A stretch of 64,000 nucleotides of DNA from Carnobacterium pleistocenium FTR1 (GTDB taxonomy: Bacteria > Bacillota > Bacilli > Lactobacillales > Carnobacteriaceae), in assembly GCF_000744285.1 (NCBI RefSeq), contig NZ_JQLQ01000002.1:186001-250000 (forward strand). The letters are read 5' to 3'. Below are positions 6,035 through 37,584 of this stretch, one piece after another. The stretch's first letter is position 1; every line of letters begins with the position of its first letter. The notes beneath the pieces were generated by a model, which worked only from the letters and a program-made list of their open reading frames with translations, was not told the DNA's origin and did no database searches. The translations under genes were made by a program, and so were the position numbers.

Positions 6035-6493
6035 ATGGCAAAAAAAATAAAGATTATTTATATCAGTTTAAGTGGGAATACGAAAAATTTTGTCGAGCGT
6101 TTAAGTGAACACATAGAAGCCACTAATGACATAGTTGTAGAGTCACTGAATGTTAAAGATCTAAAAGGAACGACTTTTTCGGTCACTGAACCTTTTGTAA
6201 GTTTCTTACCATCTTATCTAAACGGTGGAAATGGAATCGAGACAGGAGATAAGGAAGTCTTGACAACCAGATTAGGAGACTTTATAGCATCTAACGATAA
6301 CTTCAAATTCTGTTATGGCATTATCGGAAGTGGCAATCGCAATTTTGGCAACCAATTCTGCCTAAGTGCTAAACAATACACAGAAAGATTTGATTTCCCA
6401 CTAATCGATGTTTTTGAAATACGTGGAACACACTCAGATGTAAAACGAATTGCTAACTTGATTGTTCAACGTCAAGAAGAGTTTCTCAAATAA
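6035..6493 (+). CDS. nrdI: flavodoxin-like NrdI
   Basis: FMN protein that supplies the oxidant for assembling the Mn-tyrosyl radical cofactor of class Ib ribonucleotide reductase; 152 aa. The N-terminal phosphate-binding loop ISLSGNTKNFV (residues 11-21) and the SGNRNFGNQFC segment near residue 105 are typical. Its position before nrdE and nrdF is standard for class Ib loci; nrdH is not adjacent. The RBS AAGGAG lies before the ATG. Confidence 0.93.
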   Translation: MAKKIKIIYISLSGNTKNFVERLSEHIEATNDIVVESLNVKDLKGTTFSVTEPFVSFLPSYLNGGNGIETGDKEVLTTRLGDFIASNDNFKFCYGIIGSGNRNFGNQFCLSAKQYTERFDFPLIDVFEIRGTHSDVKRIANLIVQRQEEFLK

Positions 6494-6522: not shown

Positions 6523-8721
6523 TTGCTAAATCAAAAAAAACCTAATTACAGTGCCAAAACTTATTTTTACTTAAATAATCTTGTTAATATCCCAGTTAAT
6601 GGCGAAATTCCTTTACAAAGAGATCAAGAGGCGTTAAAAGCGTATTTTGAAGAGGAGATCATTCCCAATACCTTAACCTTTCCTTCGTTAGAAGAAAAGT
6701 TGGCATTCTTGGTAGATAACAACTACATTGACGTAGAAGTCCTAAACCTTTATAAGCAAGCTGATGGAGATATATATGATTTTATTTTTATTAAAAAAAT
6801 ATTCAAACAAATCTATGCTGCTAACTTTAAATTTAAAAGTTTTATGGGTGCTTATAAATTTTACACACAATATGGATTGAAAACGAATGATCAATCGAAG
6901 TATTTGGAACGATTTGAAGATCGGATTGCTTTTAATGCATTATATCTAGGTAACGGGGATCGAACGTTAGCTGTTCAGCTTGCTGAAGAACTGATCTCGC
7001 AACGCTACCAACCTGCAACACCTACTTTTTTAAATGCCGGAAAGAAAAAACGGGGCGAAATGATTTCTTGTTTCTTGATTGATATTGCTGATTCTATGCT
7101 TTCGATTGGGCGAGGCGTTAACTCTGCTTTACAACTTTCTCGCATTGGTGGTGGAGTGGGAGTTAATTTATCCAATCTTCGAGCTGCTGGTGATCCAATT
7201 AAAGAAATCGCAAATGCTTCCTCCGGAGTGCTTCCAGTGATGAAACTATTAGAAGACTCATTCAGCTATAGCAACCAACTTGGGCAACGTAATGGTGCCG
7301 GAGTAGTTTATCTAAATGTTTTCCATCCAGATATCTTAGATTTCTTATCGACTAAGAAAGAAAATGCGGATGAGAAGATACGGGTTAAAACACTCTCTCT
7401 TGGATTAGTTGTTCCTGATAAATATTATGAATTAATAAAAACAAATGAACCGATGTACCTATTTAGCCCTTACAGTGTTGAAAAGGAGTATGGTATTCCA
7501 TTCTCGTACATAGACTTGTCTGCTGAATATGACAACATGGTTGCAAATGACACTATTAAAAAAACGCAAATCAACGCTCGTGAATTAGAGCAAGAGATTT
7601 CACGTTTGCAACAAGAATCTGGCTATCCATATATTCTAAATATCGATACTGCTAATAACACAAATCCTGTTGATGGAAAAATTATTATGAGTAACTTGTG
7701 TTCAGAGATTCTTCAACCGCAAGAACCATCAAAAATTAATGCAGACTTATCTTATGATCAAACAGGTACAGATATTAGCTGTAACTTAGGCTCAAGCAAT
7801 ATTATGAACATGTTGCAATCTCCTGATTTTGCCAAATCAGTTCATTTAGCCATTCGTGCACTAACAACTGTCACAGATTCAAGCAAGGTTCTAGAAGTGC
7901 CGACTGTTATCAAAGGCAATTCAATGTACCATACAATTGGTTTAGGGGCTATGGGGTTGCATACCGCTTTAGCTATTCATCAGATTGAATATGGTTCAAA
8001 AGAATCGATTGAATTTACTGAAGCGTACTTCTTGGCTTTAAATTATCATTCCTTGGCAGCAAGTAATGAAATAGCTCAAGAACGTAGAGAAACTTTTGTT
8101 GGATTTGAAAAGTCTAAATATGCTGATGGATCTTATTTCGATTCTTATTTAGCAAGTGAATTTACCATAGCAAATGAAAAAGTGAAGAACCTCTTTGCTA
8201 ACGTCCATTTGCCAAGCATAGCAGATTGGAAAGAACTAAAAGAAAAAATATACGAGCATGGGTTATACCACCGTAACCGTTTAGCTGTTGCGCCTAATGG
8301 TTCTATTTCATATGTAAATGAAACGAGTGCGTCTTTACATCCAATTACTCAACTTGTTGAGAATCGACAAGAGAAAAAAGTAGGCTCTATTTTCTATCCA
8401 GCACCGTTCCTTTCAAATGAAACACTTAAATATTATAAATCAGCTTATGACTTCGATCAGCGTAAAATTATTGATATTTATGCTGCTGCTCAAAAGCATA
8501 TCGACCAAGGGATGAGCTTGACTTTATTTATGCGCTCAAAACTTCCTGAAGGTTTATATGAATGGAAAACGGGAGCTTCTTTGAATCTAACCACTAGAGA
8601 CTTGAGTCGTCTAAGAAATTATGCTTGGACAAAAGGAATAAAATCGCTCTACTACATCAGAACGTATACCGAAGATGACGAATTTTCAATGGCAAATACG
8701 TGTGAATCATGCATGATTTAA
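6523..8721 (+). CDS. nrdE: class Ib ribonucleotide reductase alpha subunit
   Basis: Catalytic subunit reducing ribonucleoside diphosphates, 732 aa. The TTG start at 6523 is preferred because AAGGAG lies 8-10 bases upstream and no ATG fits. Seen: RYQPATPTFLNAGKKKRGEMISCFL with the first redox Cys, RIGGGVGVNLSNLRA, SNLCSEI with the active-site thiyl Cys, TDISCNLGSSNI, APNGSISYVNETSASLHP, and the C-terminal redox pair in TCESCMI. No N-terminal ATP cone is present, as in class Ib. It works with NrdF and NrdI, with electrons from a NrdH or thioredoxin encoded elsewhere. Confidence 0.95.
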   Translation: MLNQKKPNYSAKTYFYLNNLVNIPVNGEIPLQRDQEALKAYFEEEIIPNTLTFPSLEEKLAFLVDNNYIDVEVLNLYKQADGDIYDFIFIKKIFKQIYAANFKFKSFMGAYKFYTQYGLKTNDQSKYLERFEDRIAFNALYLGNGDRTLAVQLAEELISQRYQPATPTFLNAGKKKRGEMISCFLIDIADSMLSIGRGVNSALQLSRIGGGVGVNLSNLRAAGDPIKEIANASSGVLPVMKLLEDSFSYSNQLGQRNGAGVVYLNVFHPDILDFLSTKKENADEKIRVKTLSLGLVVPDKYYELIKTNEPMYLFSPYSVEKEYGIPFSYIDLSAEYDNMVANDTIKKTQINARELEQEISRLQQESGYPYILNIDTANNTNPVDGKIIMSNLCSEILQPQEPSKINADLSYDQTGTDISCNLGSSNIMNMLQSPDFAKSVHLAIRALTTVTDSSKVLEVPTVIKGNSMYHTIGLGAMGLHTALAIHQIEYGSKESIEFTEAYFLALNYHSLAASNEIAQERRETFVGFEKSKYADGSYFDSYLASEFTIANEKVKNLFANVHLPSIADWKELKEKIYEHGLYHRNRLAVAPNGSISYVNETSASLHPITQLVENRQEKKVGSIFYPAPFLSNETLKYYKSAYDFDQRKIIDIYAAAQKHIDQGMSLTLFMRSKLPEGLYEWKTGASLNLTTRDLSRLRNYAWTKGIKSLYYIRTYTEDDEFSMANTCESCMI

Positions 8722-8733
8722 TAGGAGGAAAAT

Positions 8734-9693
8734 ATGTCGTACTTACACTATAAGGCAATCAACTGGAACGAAATTGAAGATAAGTTAGATCATTCAACTT
8801 GGGAGAAATTAACATCTTTATTTTGGCTAGATACTCGAATCCCTGTTACGAATGAAAAATCGCAATGGGAAAGTCTTCCAGAAAAAGAAAGAGAAGTATT
8901 CATGAAAGCATTGGCTGGGTTAGCTTCAATCGCTACCTTTCAATCAGAAAAAGGGAATATGGTCATTCAAGAAGAAAAACATACTCAACAAGAAGCTGCT
9001 ATTTACAATAATATTCAATTTATTGAGTCGGTTCATGCTAAAGCTTACAATACAATTTTGACTGGATTTAATGAATCCGAAGGGGTTGATACTGTTTTGA
9101 CATGGGCAGATAACAGTACCGAACTGCAATACAAATTAAATCGTATTCTTGAAGTCTATAAAACTGGAAATATTCTTCAAAAACGAGTAGCAAACTTAAT
9201 TTTAGAAGGAGTACTAACTTATAGTAGTCTCTTTACTCCGTTAATGTACTGGACACAAAAAAGGTTCACTAACGTTGCGGAAATGATTAAGTTAGTTCTT
9301 ATGAATGAATCCTTGCATTGCTTTTACATTAGCCATAAATTCCAACTAGGTTTTTTTGAATTATCTCAGCAAGAACAGGTGAGTATGAGAGATTGGACCT
9401 TCGATTTTATGGTTGATCTAGTCAGTAACGAATTGATTTATATAGAGCAAATTTATAAGGGAACTGATTGGGTCGAGGAAAGTAAAGATTTTGTTCGACA
9501 ACAGGCTAACAAAGCACTTATAAGCTTGGGTTTCGAACCGCTTTACCCAGAAATAAGTGCAAGTAATACCCATATAGATTCAATCAATACAATTTTGACT
9601 AAAGTAACGCATCATGAAGCAGGCAGCCAATCAGGCGTCAGTTTTAAATTTGATAAAGAAGATGCGATGGCTGAGGAAGATTACAACTTTTAA
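8734..9693 (+). CDS. class Ib NrdF-like beta subunit lacking a metal-ligand Asp
   Basis: R2-like protein of 319 aa, 12 bp after nrdE. Most active-site residues are present: the E-x-x-H pair and radical Tyr in IESVHAKAY, Glu in LEGVLTYSS, and Glu/His in NESLH. The first ligand is lost: residue 67 is Ala (AGLASIATFQSEKG) where NrdF proteins have Asp in a GLxLLD motif, and the neighbouring paralog has LLDTLQ. GAT to GCT is one base change. The C-terminal tail EEDYNF, needed to dock NrdE, is kept. It may be a metal-altered, inactive or regulatory R2; it is not simply truncated. Confidence 0.85.
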   Translation: MSYLHYKAINWNEIEDKLDHSTWEKLTSLFWLDTRIPVTNEKSQWESLPEKEREVFMKALAGLASIATFQSEKGNMVIQEEKHTQQEAAIYNNIQFIESVHAKAYNTILTGFNESEGVDTVLTWADNSTELQYKLNRILEVYKTGNILQKRVANLILEGVLTYSSLFTPLMYWTQKRFTNVAEMIKLVLMNESLHCFYISHKFQLGFFELSQQEQVSMRDWTFDFMVDLVSNELIYIEQIYKGTDWVEESKDFVRQQANKALISLGFEPLYPEISASNTHIDSINTILTKVTHHEAGSQSGVSFKFDKEDAMAEEDYNF

Positions 9694-9699
9694 TAATTA

Positions 9700-9738
9700 A
9701 AACTAGCATGTAAGATTCAAAAGACTGCATGCTAGTTT
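9700..9738 (+). other. intercistronic hairpin between the two nrdF genes
   Basis: AAACTAGCATG (9700-9710) pairs perfectly with CATGCTAGTTT (9728-9738) across a 17-base loop, directly before the AAGGAGGG ribosome site of the second nrdF. There is no T-run, so it is probably an mRNA stabiliser or processing/attenuation element rather than a terminator. Confidence 0.6.
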
Positions 9739-9754
9739 AAGGAGGGAAATACCA

Positions 9755-10711
9755 ATGCATTCAAATCATAAGGTAATCAATTGGAATAAAATTGAAGATG
9801 AATTAGACGATTACGTTTGGGACAAGGCAACTTCGCAATTTTGGTTAGATACGCGTGTTCCTATCTCAAATGACTTAGCAGATTGGCGAGAACTGTCATC
9901 TGTTGAACAGAAAGTGATTAATAAGGTTGTGGGTGGTCTGGCCTTATTAGATACATTACAATCTGAAAAAGGCGTTAATGCTATGCGAGAGGATGTGCGT
10001 ACGCATAAAGAAGCGGCCATTCTTAACAACTTTTTATTTATGGAGTCGATTCATGCGAAGAGTTATGGAACAATTTTAACTTCTTTAAACAGTATCAAGA
10101 GTATCAGTGAAATTTATGATTGGATGAATAATGATGAACGGATGCAATATAAGGCAAAGCGGATCAATGATATCTACAAAACCGGTAATGGCCTACAAAA
10201 GAAAATTGCTAGTATCTTTTTAGAAGGTATTTTATACTACAGCAACTTCTATGCTCCACTATGGTATCGGGGTAGTAATAAGCTTGCTAACTTAGCCGAA
10301 CTGATCAAATTAATTATCCGTGATGAATCAGTGCATGGGACTTACTTAGGGTATAAATTCCAATTAACGTATAATGAATTACCTGAAGAAGAGCAAAAGA
10401 AGTTGCTCGATTGGATGTACCCATTATTAGAAGATTTGATGGAAAATGAATTAGCTTATACGGAGGAAATTTATAGCCAAATCGATATAGCAGAAGACGT
10501 TAAGACATTTGTCCGCTATAATGCTAATAAATCATTGCAAAATATGGGCTTCCCAGCTTATTATGAGCATGCTGATCTAGCCGACGTTAATCCTATTGTG
10601 ATGAATGGTATCTCCATTGAAACGTCAAATCATGATTTTTTCTCTCAAGTTGGAGCAGGGTACCTTATGGGGAATGCTGAAACAATGGTAGACGATGATT
10701 ATCACTTTTAA
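9755..10711 (+). CDS. nrdF: class Ib ribonucleotide reductase beta subunit
   Basis: Radical-generating subunit, 318 aa. All expected ligands are present: Asp66 in GLALLDTLQ, Glu and His in MESIHAKSY with the radical Tyr, Glu in LEGILYYSNFY, and Glu/His in RDESVHG. The C-terminal DDDYHF resembles the NrdE-binding tail. It is a tandem paralog of the preceding gene, separated by 61 bp with a perfect hairpin. This copy is probably the one that supports dNTP synthesis. A strong AAGGAGGG precedes the ATG. Confidence 0.94.
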   Translation: MHSNHKVINWNKIEDELDDYVWDKATSQFWLDTRVPISNDLADWRELSSVEQKVINKVVGGLALLDTLQSEKGVNAMREDVRTHKEAAILNNFLFMESIHAKSYGTILTSLNSIKSISEIYDWMNNDERMQYKAKRINDIYKTGNGLQKKIASIFLEGILYYSNFYAPLWYRGSNKLANLAELIKLIIRDESVHGTYLGYKFQLTYNELPEEEQKKLLDWMYPLLEDLMENELAYTEEIYSQIDIAEDVKTFVRYNANKSLQNMGFPAYYEHADLADVNPIVMNGISIETSNHDFFSQVGAGYLMGNAETMVDDDYHF

Positions 10712-10919: not shown

Positions 10920-11858
10920 CTAAAGCAAGATAACATACGGTACAAGACCACGTGTTATTTTTACTTCGTTGGCTTTCGTGATGACGAGAGCTTCGATACC
11001 TGGAATGTTATCAATGTGTTGAATGACAGCGGTGGGACTAAGCGCAAAGGCCATGGTGGTCCACAATTCTCCGTCAAGCGACTTGTCTGAAACAATAGTT
11101 ATACTGGCTAATTCATTTTCAATCGGAAAGCCTGTTTTTGAATCAAAAATATGGTGATATTTTTTTCCATTTACCTTAAGTGACCGTTCATAAATACCGG
11201 ATGTTACTACTGACTTGTCTTTAACTAATATAGCTCCAGCTAAATCTCCACGTATCGGTGAAGGTTTTTGAATGCCTACACGCCAATAACCATCTTTGTG
11301 CTTTTGATTTTCTCCAATAGTCAATACATTCCCGCCCAAGTCTATTAAGCCGCTTTTCACACCTTCTTTTTGAAAGAAGGTTTTAAGTTGATCGGCAAAA
11401 TACCCTTTTGCTAAGGCACCAAGATCTATTTCCATTCCTTTTTTCGTTAAGTATACTGTTCCTTTAGCTGCATCTAGTTCAATATCAGCTGGATCAATCA
11501 GCTTTAAGCGCTCTTCGATTTCTCTTTGTTCAGGCACATGAGCGCCAGTAAAGCCAATTTTCCATAACTTGATGAGCGGTCCGATTGTGATGTTAAGTGC
11601 AAGGTTAGAAGATAGGCTATATTCCTTGCCGATTTGAATCAATTCATATAAATCTGGCTCGACGCGAACGGAATTCAGTCCCGCTTGCTGATTCACGGCC
11701 ATTAAATCGCTTTTAAAATCATTTGCGCTAAACCGATTTTCGTAGCTTGCTAGCAGGTGATCAGCTTGTTCCAATAATTTTTCTGCCTCTGGATGTACTA
11801 TGGAAAGGGTGATTTGTGTGCCCATTCGTTCAATTATTTTCTGTTTGATTTTTTTCAT
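10920..11858 (-). CDS. apbE: FAD:protein FMN transferase, cytosolic
   Basis: ApbE-family enzyme, 312 aa, that uses FAD to attach FMN covalently to Thr/Ser in FMN_bind domains. Seen: RFSANDFKSDLMAVNQQAG near residue 42, IDLGALAKGYFADQL near residue 169, a Gly-rich DLGGNVLTIG, and SGIYERSLKVNGKKYHHIFDSKTGFPIENELASITIV. There is no signal peptide or lipobox, so it should act in the cytosol. It is divergent from two FMN_bind proteins that carry its target motif (D-x-x-S-G-A-T), the obvious substrates. Close homologs act outside the membrane, so the location is notable. Confidence 0.92.
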   Translation of the reverse strand: MKKIKQKIIERMGTQITLSIVHPEAEKLLEQADHLLASYENRFSANDFKSDLMAVNQQAGLNSVRVEPDLYELIQIGKEYSLSSNLALNITIGPLIKLWKIGFTGAHVPEQREIEERLKLIDPADIELDAAKGTVYLTKKGMEIDLGALAKGYFADQLKTFFQKEGVKSGLIDLGGNVLTIGENQKHKDGYWRVGIQKPSPIRGDLAGAILVKDKSVVTSGIYERSLKVNGKKYHHIFDSKTGFPIENELASITIVSDKSLDGELWTTMAFALSPTAVIQHIDNIPGIEALVITKANEVKITRGLVPYVILL

Positions 11859-11957
11859 CCACCTATCTGTAAGATTGAAAATTTACTGTACTATCTCTAA
11901 TTGCATTTTAGCATACTCTAATAACGAGTTGAGAATCTTTCTATTGAATTTAAAAAA

Positions 11958-12039
11958 TTGATCTAGGTCAATTTTTTGAAATTTCTTTTCATTTATAATG
12001 AATACGTAAACAAATAATATATTGTGAAATTAATAACAA
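11958..12039 (+). promoter_or_regulatory. putative Crp/Fnr-type activated promoter with Rex-like site
   Basis: TTGATCTAGGTCAA (11958-11971) is one base from a perfect FNR-type half-site pair. The -10 TATAAT is at 11994-11999, so the box centre falls at about -41.5, the class II activator position, and no good -35 exists. Downstream, TTGTGAAATTAATAACAA (12022-12039) resembles a Rex box (12 of 14 defined positions). Both suggest redox or anaerobic control of the FMN_bind operon. Confidence 0.5.
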
Positions 12040-12055
12040 TAATTAGGAGGTCAAT

Positions 12056-13141
12056 ATGATTAATCTTAAACCAGGAACGTACAAAGGAAGATCAACCGGG
12101 TACCATGATTATATTACCGTTGATGTAAAAGTTGATGAGGAAAAGATTTTAGAAATTAACTACTCTGAAAATGAAACCCCCAATAAAGGTGGAGTAGCCG
12201 TAGCGAAAATGGTTGAAGATATTATCAAACAACAATCAGTGGAAATTGATACAGTTTCCGGTGCTACATATGCTTCAGAAGGTACGTTGCGGGCCGTGGA
12301 CTATGCACTAGGTGTGGCACGTGGAGAACGAGCACCTATTGATGGTGAATTTAATGAAGAAACAGGAATAATCGAGCATAATTTCACACCTGGAACATAC
12401 AGTGGAAACGGTGATGGATATAAAGGTGAAATCAACCTGAATGTAACGGTAAGTGAAAATAAGATTGAAAAAATTGAATACCAAGGAAAAGAAACGGCAG
12501 ACGTCGGTGGTATAGCCATAGAGGAAATTATTGCAAATGTTCTACGTAAACAATCTTCTCAAGTTGATACGATTTCGGGAGCAACTTTTTCTTCTCGAGG
12601 AGCACAAGAAGCTTTAGATTATGCTTTAGGTATAGCGATAGGGGAAATCGATCCAGATGCTGCACCAAAGTTAGAAGACTTAGAACCTCGTATCCAATTT
12701 AAAGGCGGATCACTGACAATTGAACAAATTGAAGCTATTCTAAATGCACTGCCAGTTGAAATTACATTTGTTGGACCAGATTTGCGATTCCAATATTTCA
12801 ATGAAGAGCATCATGAGTTCCATCGCTCTCAAGCAAGTCTAGGAAGCCACTTTATTGATTGCCATCCACCTCATTTACGTAAATTTGTTGGTAAATTAGC
12901 TGGAGAATTAGCGAACGGTACACGTAAGAGTGAAACGCATTGGTTCACACGAAAAAGTGGAGACCGTAAAATTTTTGTTTCTTATGTTCCAGTTTTCAAT
13001 CGTAAAGGTGAAAGTATCGGATTCATGGAATACGTACAAAATGGAACGCCATTTATTGACTCAATAAATGAACCAAATCGCCGCGGTGAATTAAGCGATC
13101 CAGCTGAACCAAATCCATTTGCCCGTGAAAAATGGGATTGA
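12056..13141 (+). CDS. two FMN_bind domains plus PAS domain protein
   Basis: Soluble 361-aa protein without signal peptide. Residues about 5-90 and 105-195 are two FMN_bind domains, each with an ApbE flavinylation motif: DTVSGATYAS (predicted FMN-Thr71) and DTISGATFSS (Thr177). Residues about 225-340 form a PAS domain of the kind found after DUF438 (ALPVEITFVGPDLRFQYFN, then CHPPHLRKFVGKL). The likely role is a cytosolic carrier of two covalent flavins joined to a sensory or electron-accepting PAS domain. It starts an operon with a DUF454 protein and an OYE-FMN_bind fusion. The domain calls are firm; the function is not known. Confidence 0.85.
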   Translation: MINLKPGTYKGRSTGYHDYITVDVKVDEEKILEINYSENETPNKGGVAVAKMVEDIIKQQSVEIDTVSGATYASEGTLRAVDYALGVARGERAPIDGEFNEETGIIEHNFTPGTYSGNGDGYKGEINLNVTVSENKIEKIEYQGKETADVGGIAIEEIIANVLRKQSSQVDTISGATFSSRGAQEALDYALGIAIGEIDPDAAPKLEDLEPRIQFKGGSLTIEQIEAILNALPVEITFVGPDLRFQYFNEEHHEFHRSQASLGSHFIDCHPPHLRKFVGKLAGELANGTRKSETHWFTRKSGDRKIFVSYVPVFNRKGESIGFMEYVQNGTPFIDSINEPNRRGELSDPAEPNPFAREKWD

Positions 13142-13196
13142 ACTAACAAATAAAAGAATTCAGCACTATGTTATATAGAGAAAAGGAATGATGCAG

Positions 13197-13598
13197 ATGA
13201 AACGCTATTTTTTAGTTAGTGTTGGGGTTATTTCGTTTTTATTGGGTTTGATTGGTGTCATGATGCCTATTTTACCGACCACACCATTTCTATTGTTAGC
13301 TGGTTATTGCTTTGCACACAGTTCCAGCAAGTTTAATGACTGGTTAAAAGACACGAAAGTTTATCAAATATACGTATCAGATTATGCTGAAACAAAATCC
13401 ATTCCGAAGAATAAAAAATGGAAAATACTAGTAAATATTTATATTCTGATGAGCATTTCCATATTACTTGCCCCGTTTCAACCGGTTAAAATAATGTTAG
13501 TGGTGCTGACCATTGCTTTAACCGTTGGGGTATTATTCGTTATCCCAAATCGTGAAGTTCATCTTGAAACAGAAGAAAAAAAAACAGAGATACATTAA
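13197..13598 (+). CDS. DUF454 (YbaN-like) membrane protein
   Basis: Small integral membrane protein, 133 aa from ATG 13197, chosen because AAAAGGA lies at a proper distance; two earlier ATGs abut it. The DUF454 signature GLIGVMMPILPTTPFLLLAGYCFAHSS is near the N-terminus, followed by WLKDTKVYQIYV and a second hydrophobic pair. No function is established for the family. Its place between two flavin proteins suggests a membrane partner for their redox function, but that is inference. Confidence 0.85.
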   Translation: MKRYFLVSVGVISFLLGLIGVMMPILPTTPFLLLAGYCFAHSSSKFNDWLKDTKVYQIYVSDYAETKSIPKNKKWKILVNIYILMSISILLAPFQPVKIMLVVLTIALTVGVLFVIPNREVHLETEEKKTEIH

Positions 13599-13620
13599 AT
13601 CGCTGGAAGGGACTGCACAC

Positions 13621-15105
13621 ATGTCAAATAAACTATTCGAGGAAATTGAACTAAAAGCAGGAGTAACTTTAAAAAACCGCATTATGATGGCTCCAATGAC
13701 TATTCAAGCAGCCTATTTTGATGGAACGGTCACACAAGAGATGATTGATTATTATGCCCATCGTTCTGGAGAAGCGGGTGCAATCATCGTGGAGAGTTCA
13801 TTTGTGGAGGATAAAGGACGAGGATTTGCGGGAGCTTTAGGCAACACTAAAGACTCTCAAGGGAAAGAATTGCAAAAATTGGCTAGTGCAATCAAGGAAA
13901 AAGGTTCCAAAGCTATTTTGCAAATTTATCATGCTGGGAGAATGGCAGCCCCTGAACTCAATGGGGGAGCTGCACCCATCTCAGCTAGTCCTGTGGCAGC
14001 GTTGCGCCCAGATGCGGTTACACCGCGCCAAATGATGCCAATAGACATTGATAAAATGATTCAGTGTTTTACAGACGCAACGCGACGTGCGATTGAAGCC
14101 GGATTTGACGGAGTTGAGATCCATGGCGCCAATACGTACTTGATTCAGCAATTTTTCTCCCCTCATTCGAATCGTCGTGAAGACAACTGGGGCGGCAACC
14201 GAGAAGCACGCGCTAGATTTCCAGAAGCAGTGATGCAAGCCGTGCAAGAAGAAGCCAAGAGACAGCAAGCAGAGCACTTTATTGTGGGTTACCGATTCTC
14301 TCCAGAAGAAATTGAAGAGCCAGGTATCAGCTTTGAAGATACCATGTACTTATTGAACCGCTTAGCTAAACTGAACCCGGATTACTTCCATAGTTCAATG
14401 GGTAAATGGGACAGAACATCGATCAGAGATAAAGAAGACAGCCAGTCGTTACTCGAAAAATATGGCGAACAGCAATCGGAAGAGTTAGCTCAGATTGCTC
14501 TTATCGGTGTAGGAGGAATTGGACAACGCAGCGATGCAGAAGCTGCGCTTGAAGCTGGATATGATTTAGTTGCTGTTGGAAAAGCGTTTTTGGTTGAACC
14601 GAATTGGGTTGGGAAAGCAGAGATGGGCAAAGAAATCAAAAACTTTGCAGATATCAATGAGCAAGACCAGTTGCACGTCCCTGAACCATTGTGGGATGTG
14701 ATGGATTTTATGATTAGAGATGTACAAGCAGATGAAGAAAAATATGAACATTTGAAAGCATTGCAAAATGTGAAAATCACTTTCAATCCTGGTACCTATG
14801 AAGCTTTTGCTGAAGGTCATGATGGAAGTGACATCCCAATGAAAGTGACTTTTTCGGATACCAAAATTATGGCAATAGAATTGGACGGCCAAGAGCAAAC
14901 TGATGCTGTTGCAACTTCCGTTTTCAAGCGGTTGCCAGAAGAGATTATTGATGGGCAAACGTTGCAAGTAGATATCATCTCAGGTGCAACAGTGACTTCA
15001 AGAAGCCTTATTGATGGAGTGGCTGATGCAGTCGAAAAAGCAGGTGGAAACTCCGAAGCTTTGCGTGTACGTTCAAAAGCTGCTATTCAATGGAGTAGTA
15101 AATAA
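13621..15105 (+). CDS. OYE-like flavin reductase fused to FMN_bind domain
   Basis: 494-aa fusion; ATG 13621 is preferred to upstream in-frame starts because GGAAGGG precedes it and the OYE domain begins at once (KLFEEIELKAGVTLKNRIMMAPM). Residues about 1-345 are an Old Yellow Enzyme-type TIM barrel (HGANTYLIQQFFSPHSNRREDNWGG; GVGGIGQRSDAEAALEAGYDLVAVGKAFL). Residues about 385-475 are an FMN_bind domain with DIISGATVTS, predicted covalent FMN at Thr457. NADH-dependent fumarate/acrylate-type reductases use OYE plus FMN_bind plus a FAD_binding_2 domain; here the last domain is absent, so electrons probably go to another protein. Last gene of the operon. Confidence 0.85.
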   Translation: MSNKLFEEIELKAGVTLKNRIMMAPMTIQAAYFDGTVTQEMIDYYAHRSGEAGAIIVESSFVEDKGRGFAGALGNTKDSQGKELQKLASAIKEKGSKAILQIYHAGRMAAPELNGGAAPISASPVAALRPDAVTPRQMMPIDIDKMIQCFTDATRRAIEAGFDGVEIHGANTYLIQQFFSPHSNRREDNWGGNREARARFPEAVMQAVQEEAKRQQAEHFIVGYRFSPEEIEEPGISFEDTMYLLNRLAKLNPDYFHSSMGKWDRTSIRDKEDSQSLLEKYGEQQSEELAQIALIGVGGIGQRSDAEAALEAGYDLVAVGKAFLVEPNWVGKAEMGKEIKNFADINEQDQLHVPEPLWDVMDFMIRDVQADEEKYEHLKALQNVKITFNPGTYEAFAEGHDGSDIPMKVTFSDTKIMAIELDGQEQTDAVATSVFKRLPEEIIDGQTLQVDIISGATVTSRSLIDGVADAVEKAGGNSEALRVRSKAAIQWSSK

Positions 15106-35725: not shown

Positions 35726-36051
35726 ATTTTTCAAATCAACAAATTTTGAAACTATTCTTACTGAAGAAGTTAAAAAGACTTTTTCTTTGATTAATAGTCG
35801 GATAAAGAAATAATTGGTCATTGATGATATCTAAAATTCTTGTGAATCATAAAAACGTTTGTATTTGTTCAGTTAGTAACAAATTTAATTGCTAATAAAA
35901 TAGTTATTAATAAGGTGTATAAAGACTTGAATACTGTTTTTTGGCGATATGTTATTGAAACACAAAAAGATTGATTGTTCTTTCACAAATCATATGGTAA
36001 AGTAAGAGAGTTGTGAGGGGTAACTTGGGTTATAGATTTAAGGAGGAAATT

Positions 36052-37584
36052 ATGAAAAAGAAATCTTTTTGGTATGTAGTACTTATGTTTTTTGTTGGTA
36101 TTTTTTTGGTGTCTTGTGGGGTGTCTGAAGCAAAAGAACAATCAAAAGATAGCGAAGCCAAAGAAAGCTCTGCTAAAGAAACTGAAGTTGAATCAGGTGC
36201 TTCAGAACAGGTTTATACAGATATTAGTGAATTAGAAGATAATTATGACATTATCATTGTTGGCGGAGGTGGGTCAGGGATGACTGCAGCCATTGAAGCA
36301 AAAGATGCTGGTTTGAATCCAGTTATCTTAGAAAAAATGCCAGTTGCTGGTGGTAATACTGCGAAATCATCAAGTGGTATGAATGCTTCAACTACTAAAG
36401 TTCAAGAAGCGGAAGGCATTACAGATAGTAATGATGCTTTTTATGAAGAAACGTTAGAGGGCGGAAAAGGAACTAATGATAAAGAATTATTACGTTACTT
36501 TGTGGATAACTCTTCCGCAGCAATTGATTGGCTAGATGAGAACGGAATCATATTAGACAACTTAACAATAACTGGTGGAATGAGTCAAAAAAGGACCCAT
36601 CGTCCATCAGACGGCTCTGCAATTGGTGGTTATTTAGTTGAAGGATTATTAAAAAATGTTTATGAACGAGAAATTTCAATCTTTGTAAATGCAGATGTGA
36701 CAGCTATCAATGAAAATGACGGTAAAGTTAATGAAGTGACAGTTGAAATTAATGGAGAAGAACCTAAAACGCTAACAGGTAAAGCAATTATTGTTACCAC
36801 TGGAGGATTTGGGGCAAGCAAAGAAATGATTGAAGAATTTAGACCAGATATAACCGATTATGTGACAACTAATCAAGAAGGCAGTACTGGTGACGGCATT
36901 ACAATGATTGAAAAGCTAGGCGGTCAAATGATCGATATGGATCAAATCCAAATTCATCCAACAGTTCAACAAGACAAAGGAATCTTAATAGGCGAAGTCG
37001 TTCGTGGCGAAGGAGCTATCCTCGTGAACCAAGAGGGAAATCGATTTGTTAATGAGATGAATACACGAGATAAAGTTTCTGCAGCTATTACTGGTTTACC
37101 GGAAGAATCGGCTTATTTGATCTTTGACCAAGGAGTACGTGATCGAGCAAAAGCGGTCGATTTTTATGAAAAACAAGGGTATGTTGTTAGCGGGAAAAGT
37201 ATAGAAGAGCTAGCAGAACAGATTGATGTACCGGCTAGTCAATTACAGACTACAGTTGATACATGGAATCAAAGTGTTGCTAATAAGACAGATGAAGCAT
37301 TTGAACGCACTACTGCAATGGAAAATGACTTAGCTGAACCAAGTTATTATGCGATACAAATTGCTCCAGGAATTCACTATACAATGGGTGGCGTTAAAAT
37401 AAATACGCAAACCGAAGTGTTGAATAAAGAAAGTCAACCAATTGAAGGCTTATACGCTGCCGGCGAATTGGTTGGAGGATTACATGGGAACAATCGAATT
37501 GGTGGAAACTCTGTTGCCGAAATTATTATTTTTGGACGCCAAGCTGGTCAGCAAGCTGCTGAATATATAAATAGCCAACAGTAA
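36052..37584 (+). CDS. secreted fumarate-reductase-like flavoprotein (lipoprotein)
   Basis: 510 aa from ATG 36052 (AAGGAGG upstream). A lipoprotein signal with lipobox LVSCG at about residue 22 is followed by a charged linker and a FAD_binding_2 domain starting DIIIVGGGGSGMTAAIEAKDAG. The fumarate-reductase active site is kept: His in IQIHPT, Arg in NTRDKVS, His in GIHYTMGG, Arg in NNRIGGNS. It should reduce fumarate or a similar unsaturated acid outside the membrane. No FMN_bind or heme domain is attached, so a separate electron donor is needed. It resembles the extracellular FrdA used in flavin-based electron transfer in Listeria. Confidence 0.88.
   Translation: MKKKSFWYVVLMFFVGIFLVSCGVSEAKEQSKDSEAKESSAKETEVESGASEQVYTDISELEDNYDIIIVGGGGSGMTAAIEAKDAGLNPVILEKMPVAGGNTAKSSSGMNASTTKVQEAEGITDSNDAFYEETLEGGKGTNDKELLRYFVDNSSAAIDWLDENGIILDNLTITGGMSQKRTHRPSDGSAIGGYLVEGLLKNVYEREISIFVNADVTAINENDGKVNEVTVEINGEEPKTLTGKAIIVTTGGFGASKEMIEEFRPDITDYVTTNQEGSTGDGITMIEKLGGQMIDMDQIQIHPTVQQDKGILIGEVVRGEGAILVNQEGNRFVNEMNTRDKVSAAITGLPEESAYLIFDQGVRDRAKAVDFYEKQGYVVSGKSIEELAEQIDVPASQLQTTVDTWNQSVANKTDEAFERTTAMENDLAEPSYYAIQIAPGIHYTMGGVKINTQTEVLNKESQPIEGLYAAGELVGGLHGNNRIGGNSVAEIIIFGRQAGQQAAEYINSQQ

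Follow-up and report, generated by a model that had tools for sequence, protein, structure and literature searches.

The window, i.e., the whole 64,000-nucleotide stretch of Carnobacterium pleistocenium FTR1 analyzed here, contains a tight ribonucleotide reductase operon with the gene order nrdI-nrdE-nrdF1-nrdF2 (Table 1). The NrdI of this module shares 46–85% identity with NrdI of other such modules and 28–32% with NrdI of six canonical operons. Three R2 genes are present in the genome (2.66 Mb), namely nrdF1, nrdF2 and a canonical nrdF, the latter in a separate nrdI-nrdE-nrdF operon (C2:1243.7-1247.2 kb). A 13-pair hairpin was observed between nrdF1 and nrdF2 (9700–9738), and the intergenic stretch as a whole folds with −17.8 kcal/mol; folding is weaker in five relatives (−2.1 to −8.6 kcal/mol). 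The hairpin perhaps tunes the NrdF1:NrdF2 ratio locally. Elsewhere in the window (10920–15105 and 36046–37584), genes for an ApbE-family protein, an FMN_bind/PAS protein, an OYE-type reductase fused to FMN_bind and a FAD_binding_2 protein were found, which perhaps form a covalent-flavin electron-transfer cluster. An FMN transferase gene also lies near the nrd module of locus L119, probably by coincidence.

Table 1. Genes of the nrd module in the window and the codons of nrdF1 at which functional residues are replaced.
Feature	Position	Strand	Evidence or remark
nrdI, accessory module protein (152 aa)	6035..6493	+	NF002714 match 205.5 bits, cut-off 190
nrdE, catalytic subunit (732 aa, TTG start)	6523..8721	+	TIGR04170 1069 bits, cut-off 750
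nrdF1, R2 paralog with incomplete radical machinery (proposed beta')	8734..9693	+	PF00268 181 bits; TIGR04171 290.2 bits, below cut-off 355; conserved family
nrdF2, intact class Ib R2 (beta)	9755..10711	+	TIGR04171 433.9 bits, above cut-off 355; all ligands and transfer residues present
Codon 67 of nrdF1, GCT (Ala), Asp metal ligand replaced	8932..8934	+	
Codon 191 of nrdF1, AAT (Asn), radical-transfer Asp replaced	9304..9306	+	
Codon 264 of nrdF1, AGC (Ser), Asn at NrdI oxidant channel entrance replaced	9523..9525	+	Channel residues as given in the accessible text of PMC9462851
Codon 304 of nrdF1, TTT (Phe), tail Tyr (E. coli Y356) replaced	9643..9645	+	Numbering as given in the accessible text of PMC7615503

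The Asp preceding the ligand E192 (D191; D237 in E. coli) is the residue which we take to carry the radical-transfer hydrogen bond. Its conservation across R2 clades is described in the available part of PMC3824934. Other functional positions were assigned by comparison with characterized proteins. The key residues W52, D88, Y126, K213 and Y325 of the Mesoplasma florum R2 protein, as listed in the accessible text of PMC7615503, correspond to W31, D67, Y105, E192 and Y304 here, with a constant offset of 21; K213 is placed at E192 and Y126 at Y105 because the class Ie substitutions locate them there. Since the same text equates W52 and Y325 of M. florum with W48 and Y356 of E. coli, Y304 is the equivalent of Y356, a residue reported to be essential and to occur in all class I enzymes characterized (PMC8463856, accessible part). 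The channel residues S162, Y166, K263 and N267 of the Bacillus cereus R2b protein (PMC9462851, accessible part) match S159, Y163, K260 and N264 here, an offset of 3 that was judged from E161 in B. cereus R2b and E158 in E. coli (PMC6754363).

The earlier note on this DNA, made from the sequence alone, had reported Ala instead of the Asp metal ligand in the first NrdF, an intact LLDTLQ motif in the adjacent paralog, and retention of the other ligands, the radical Tyr and the docking tail. All of this is borne out: codon 67 of nrdF1 reads GCT, the motif is present in NrdF2, and the window NrdF1 has E98, H101, Y105, E158, E192, H195 and the end ...EEDYNF. The defect is, however, wider than described there, as D191N, N264S and Y304F accompany D67A. 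An alignment of 26 NrdF1, 26 NrdF2 and 21 canonical NrdF sequences, from which a split NrdF1 and a broken NrdF2 were left out, puts these changes in context. D67 is missing in every NrdF1 (17 Ala, 5 Ser, 3 Thr and 1 Tyr), and so are D191 (14 Gly, 12 Asn), N264 and Y304. K260 is retained in only 4 of the 26 and lost in 22, and the radical Tyr Y105 is kept in 16 and lost in 10. The remaining ligands have been retained to different degrees (E98 in 18, H101 in 21, E158 in 24, E192 in 12 and H195 in 12), and four of the six metal ligands are gone in the most eroded proteins. W31, D316 and Y317 persist in all 26 NrdF1 and F319 in 25. By comparison, position 67 is Asp in 26/26 NrdF2 and 21/21 canonical NrdF, both of which also retain all ligands, Y105, D191, Y304, K260 and N264 without exception; W31, D316, Y317 and F319 are likewise invariant in the 26 NrdF2. 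With five of six ligands (all but D67) and Tyr105 still in place, partial metal binding by the window NrdF1 is possible. At channel position 159, all 26 NrdF2 proteins, including that of the window, have Gly, and canonical NrdF has Ser or Thr. Together with the divergent NrdI of the module, Gly159 may indicate an oxidant route that is tuned differently.

Measured against what characterizes a radical-generating class Ib R2, NrdF1 lacks the full set of six ligands, the radical-transfer Asp and the tail Tyr, and its TIGR04171 score falls short of the cut-off that NrdF2 exceeds; what it does have are the Ribonuc_red_sm domain (PF00268) and a predicted R2 fold, with NrdF proteins as top Foldseek matches of the model. 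We also compared the losses with the general erosion of the protein. Loss stood at 4 of 13 catalytic positions versus 16 of the 110 positions that never vary among NrdF2 and canonical NrdF (P = 0.09), which is only a hint that loss in NrdF1 is weakly concentrated on catalytic positions, and not clearly aimed there. Ligand retention did not exceed background (P = 0.20 in the Carnobacteriaceae clade, P = 0.11 with the Lactococcus-type clade added). Selection on the remaining ligands in Carnobacteriaceae NrdF1 was considered and is unsupported, as their retention is no higher than background. Within residues 1–40, a region picked after seeing the data, 8 of 14 invariant positions are retained (i.e., present in at least 90% of NrdF1), compared to 16 of the 96 outside this region (P = 0.002, Fisher test).

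AlphaFold predicts both the window NrdF1 (pLDDT 76) and the heavily eroded NrdF1 of L120 (77.6) to be helical throughout, with ends of low confidence. The best PDB match of both is the Streptococcus sanguinis NrdF (4N83; by Foldseek for the window model), to which the window protein is 44–45% identical in the structural alignment. Identity to other NrdF of Carnobacteriaceae is 39–43%. Helix alpha-B is described as the core of the R2 dimer interface in the accessible text of PMC6754363. Q70 and S71, which we place on this helix, are retained in 25/26 NrdF1, a weak hint in favor of a kept dimer interface.

NrdF1 is not a peculiarity of one strain. It was detected in 6 of 18 Carnobacteriaceae genomes, namely that of the window and five others at 71–84% identity, always alongside NrdF2; the remaining 12 genomes have one NrdF match each. 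Codon 67 is GCT in all six, precisely the recurrence in related strains that the earlier note had named as a check, and N191 and C196 are common to them as well. A sequencing error at codon 67 is thereby rejected, and a recent degeneration in a single strain is rejected since NrdF1 forms a shared, conserved family in relatives. The module also occurs on about 200 plasmid records and elsewhere in Lactobacillales. A tblastn search of plasmids gave records with two NrdF places, and the same gene order was found on records read from Lactiplantibacillus, Latilactobacillus, Pediococcus, Lactococcus and Enterococcus. Among 27 modules read, the NrdF1 frame is intact in 26, the exception being the split gene of L. 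plantarum pCYLB47-5 (L057). The order nrdI-nrdE-nrdF1-nrdF2 holds in 25 of the 27, broken genes counted in; the two exceptions are G281 (L104), which has nrdI-nrdF1-nrdF2 without an adjoining nrdE, and L117, a circular record whose linearized form starts at nrdE. The two nrdE genes of G281 lie elsewhere in its genome, and the NrdF1/NrdF2 pair may use one of them. In 14 of the 16 operons viewed, nrdF1 lies 9–79 bases ahead of nrdF2 (210 and 556 bases in two Lactococcus plasmids), and, judged by eye, the two genes mostly have separate ribosome-binding sites. A divergent gene for a Crp/Fnr-family regulator was seen just upstream of the module on six Lactococcus/Enterococcus plasmids (L059, L061, L062, L113, L114, L119).

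Plasmid tallies, which compare totals by genus and not record by record, agree closely between NrdF2 and NrdF1 in Lactiplantibacillus (114/114), Lactococcus (31/31), Latilactobacillus (30/30) and Pediococcus (15/15). For Enterococcus, 21 NrdF2 compare with 8 + 13 NrdF1, some canonical NrdF being within the 21 and the 8, and records named Lactobacillus gave 1 NrdF2 and 2 NrdF1. Overall, NrdF2 was found on 217 plasmid records (E ≤ 1e-120), of which 163 are predicted to be mobilizable and 38 conjugative. NrdF1 of the Lactobacillaceae type was found on 174 records (165 at ≥60% identity; the 9 below 60% include at least one canonical NrdF, NZ_CP143580) and that of the Lactococcus/Enterococcus type on 44. 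Each gene of the module is broken on some plasmid (NrdI in L059, in two frames; NrdE in L116; NrdF1 in L057; NrdF2 in L061), and a further nrdE and R2 gene is present in 14/14 module-bearing genomes; thus, the module is dispensable. Truncated NrdF1 pieces occur on two E. faecium plasmids, AP026629 and L062; the latter was left out of the 27 modules, as its nrdI is followed by the truncated piece and an IS30 gene.

In a sample of 395 genomes of the order, for which the Lactococcus-type NrdF1 was left out as query, 30 contained an NrdF2-like gene at E ≤ 1e-135. NrdF1 lies directly upstream in all 14 genomes whose NrdF2 is ≥69% identical to P0002, and no NrdF1 was found in the approximately 1.4 kb upstream in any of the 16 genomes whose NrdF2-like gene is ≤68% identical; this count leaves out a second G281 gene (64%). 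Species-genome contigs searched with short peptide patterns, an insensitive approach, yielded no match with P0001 and one locus, in Desemzia incerta, with the alignment. Viral contigs gave none with P0001, a single intact module (L120, outside the 27) with P0005, and, with the alignment, L120 once more together with seven lone NrdF for which no NrdF1 could be seen. A class-level scan of 398 genomes with the Carnobacteriaceae profile found no further NrdF1 at E ≤ 1e-100.

In the phylogenetic tree, for which the program flags long branches, NrdF1 and NrdF2 each form a single clade (support 91/94 and 100/100, respectively) with matching sub-clades: Carnobacteriaceae; Lactococcus, E. faecium and G281; and Lactobacillaceae, E. 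faecalis and others. Whether or not nrdF1 arose by duplication of nrdF2 within the operon, the trees do not tell: the two group together when Carnobacteriaceae NrdF1 are used alone, but with a value of 29, which amounts to no support, and the full tree carries the long-branch warnings. Pairwise distances were correlated for the 23 of 27 operons in which all three genes are whole. NrdF1 and NrdF2 distances correlate with r = 0.94 (Mantel 0/2000); the partial correlation is 0.63 for NrdF1–NrdF2 given NrdE and 0.13 for NrdF1–NrdE given NrdF2. Part of this mirror-tree signal stems from the history that the genes share as one operon. Selection was estimated by the Nei-Gojobori method. For 15 Carnobacteriaceae pairs, the median dN/dS of NrdF1 is 0.135 (0.099–0.235), compared to 0.111 for NrdI, 0.064 for NrdE and 0.031 for NrdF2, and dN is roughly fourfold higher in NrdF1 than in NrdF2. 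Values for six chosen Lactobacillaceae are 0.113 for NrdF1 (0.095–0.667, with one pair at 0.67) and 0.036 for NrdF2, and for four of the Lactococcus type 0.201 and 0.051; in this last set, dS is close to saturation and several pairs give no defined ratio. Judged by these ratios, NrdF1 is under purifying selection, with a constraint about 3–4 times less than that on NrdF2. A pseudogene is rejected given the intact frames and the Carnobacteriaceae ratios.

We favor, at slightly better than an even chance, the interpretation that NrdF1 is an R2 paralog without radical competence, retained for a joint function with NrdF2, most likely as one half of a beta-beta' dimer. The role as the other beta half is the likeliest because fold, docking end and co-inheritance are kept. 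NrdF1 would pair with NrdF2, and NrdF2 alone would bind metals, be activated by the module NrdI and send the radical via W31, D191 and Y304 into NrdE. NrdF1 would contribute the other dimer half and a docking tail, and would thus stabilize NrdF2, help it to fold, or hold that half of the holoenzyme which is not engaged. As far as its residues tell, the radical cannot pass through NrdF1 by the known route. In E. coli class Ia, only one half is described as engaged at any time (PMC8463856, accessible part), so activity would not have to suffer from a dead half. Co-occurrence and mirror trees lend the heterodimer with NrdF2 indirect support. More tentatively, and at somewhat less than even chance, the module would encode a mobile class Ib enzyme with an obligately asymmetric small subunit of NrdF2 and dead NrdF1, only one half of the holoenzyme ever firing.

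Alternatively, NrdF1 could be a free regulator or decoy whose own homodimer docks to NrdE and throttles the module or the chromosomal class Ib enzyme. The combination of a kept docking end (D316, Y317, F319) and lost radical residues would fit this, a possible target exists in the second nrdE and R2 of all 14 genomes, and the arrangement of G281, with no nrdE adjoining, is compatible with it. However, the NrdF1 distances track NrdF2 and not NrdE, and close spacing with mostly individual ribosome-binding sites suits a matched pair. We consider a free decoy rather unlikely; the suggestion of a decoy or regulatory R2 in the earlier note was right in its broad direction, but the data agree better with a structural partner of NrdF2. 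Improbable is a role as an assembly factor, binding NrdF2 transiently for folding or metal loading outside the working holoenzyme. Its gene adjoins nrdI, nrdE and nrdF2, and yeast R4 is described as required for correct R2 folding (PMC3267527, accessible part), but a transient chaperone would not need the NrdE-docking end, and the loss of N264 and, mostly, K260 makes oxidant delivery through NrdF1 unlikely.

The two further proposals of the earlier note, a new cofactor variant and a decaying duplicate, fare worse, and both a new cofactor for the whole family and plain decay are unlikely. Across the family, lineages that lost up to four ligands or the radical Tyr, and the general absence of D191 and Y304, speak against a cofactor variant. 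A narrower version, to which we assign very little probability, restricts it to NrdF1 of the Carnobacteriaceae and Lactococcus type, which would bind one metal at site 2 as an altered cofactor, D67A leaving an open coordination position. Indeed, E98, Y105, E158, E192 and H195 are kept in 12/12 NrdF1 of these clades; nevertheless, this retention does not exceed background in either comparison, H101 is lost in five of the six Lactococcus-type proteins, and the usual radical route is closed there too by the loss of D191 and Y304. As for NrdF1 being a decaying duplicate of NrdF2, its fourfold dN, the split plasmid copy and the truncated E. faecium pieces point that way, but dN/dS is 0.10–0.24 in 15/15 Carnobacteriaceae pairs, 26 of 27 modules have an intact frame, and NrdF1 persists beside NrdF2 in 14/14 genomes and through deep divergence, which leaves decay with hardly any probability.

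The small subunit of class Ib ribonucleotide reductase is regarded as a homodimer of NrdF. If the heterodimer of NrdF1 and NrdF2 is correct, a beta-beta' design arose separately in bacteria, as an independent counterpart of yeast Rnr2/Rnr4; the pair would hard-wire half-of-sites behavior and offer a natural enzyme for tests of half-of-sites radical transfer, with no engineering required. Moreover, of the plasmid genes that carry the annotation nrdF or “ribonucleotide-diphosphate reductase subunit beta”, many probably encode proteins that cannot generate a radical by the known route. Among the best-ranked literature matches, which include few subscription journals, we found no paper on a bacterial NrdF that lacks ligands and is paired with an intact NrdF. 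The accessible parts of PMC6662855 and PMC11263657 name the two genes of the module just nrdF and nrdF2 and do not mention active-site loss. For the Lactococcus plasmid pGdh442, NrdE, NrdF and NrdI are given (PMC3019208); its record NC_009435 carries NrdF1.

Several known systems resemble the module in part. Canonical class Ib NrdF, with S. sanguinis 4N83 as the nearest solved structure, shares the predicted fold, but has the D67, D191, N264 and Y304 that NrdF1 lacks. Class Ie R2 proteins (VPK, QSK) are likewise derived from class Ib, have altered ligands and usually nrdI nearby. In these, three glutamates are changed, the Asp and the tail Tyr are kept, and a metal-free DOPA radical is described (PMC11846895; PMC7615503; accessible parts). 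NrdF1, in contrast, has neither the Asp nor the tail Tyr; class Ie identity is rejected, as the wrong residues are changed (E98, E158 and E192 with A67 in the window), in agreement with the distinction drawn in the earlier note. By analogy, the closest functional parallel is yeast R4. According to the accessible text of PMC3267527, the active yeast form is a beta-beta' heterodimer, in which Rnr4, an R2 paralog without iron ligands and inactive alone, pairs with the intact Rnr2. Here, too, a ligand-lacking R2 paralog stands beside an intact R2 in one genome. The yeast enzyme is class Ia, however, whereas NrdF1 is class Ib and bacterial, has NrdI and an adjoining partner gene in one operon, and lost its own set of residues, and its heterodimer is proposed from the comparisons made here. 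Shared descent is not supported, as none of 41 phmmer matches (E ≤ 0.001) bears the name of a yeast small chain and the closest solved proteins are class Ib NrdF; the resemblance would be convergent. A bacterial beta-beta' dimer with a dead half has been speculated upon before, for “Ca. Liberibacter asiaticus” with its short NrdB and for E. coli C600 with its truncated beta' (PMC5154197, accessible part). The short NrdB is a nearly identical copy and the C600 protein is truncated, whereas NrdF1 is a full-length protein that has diverged strongly and is subject to selection.
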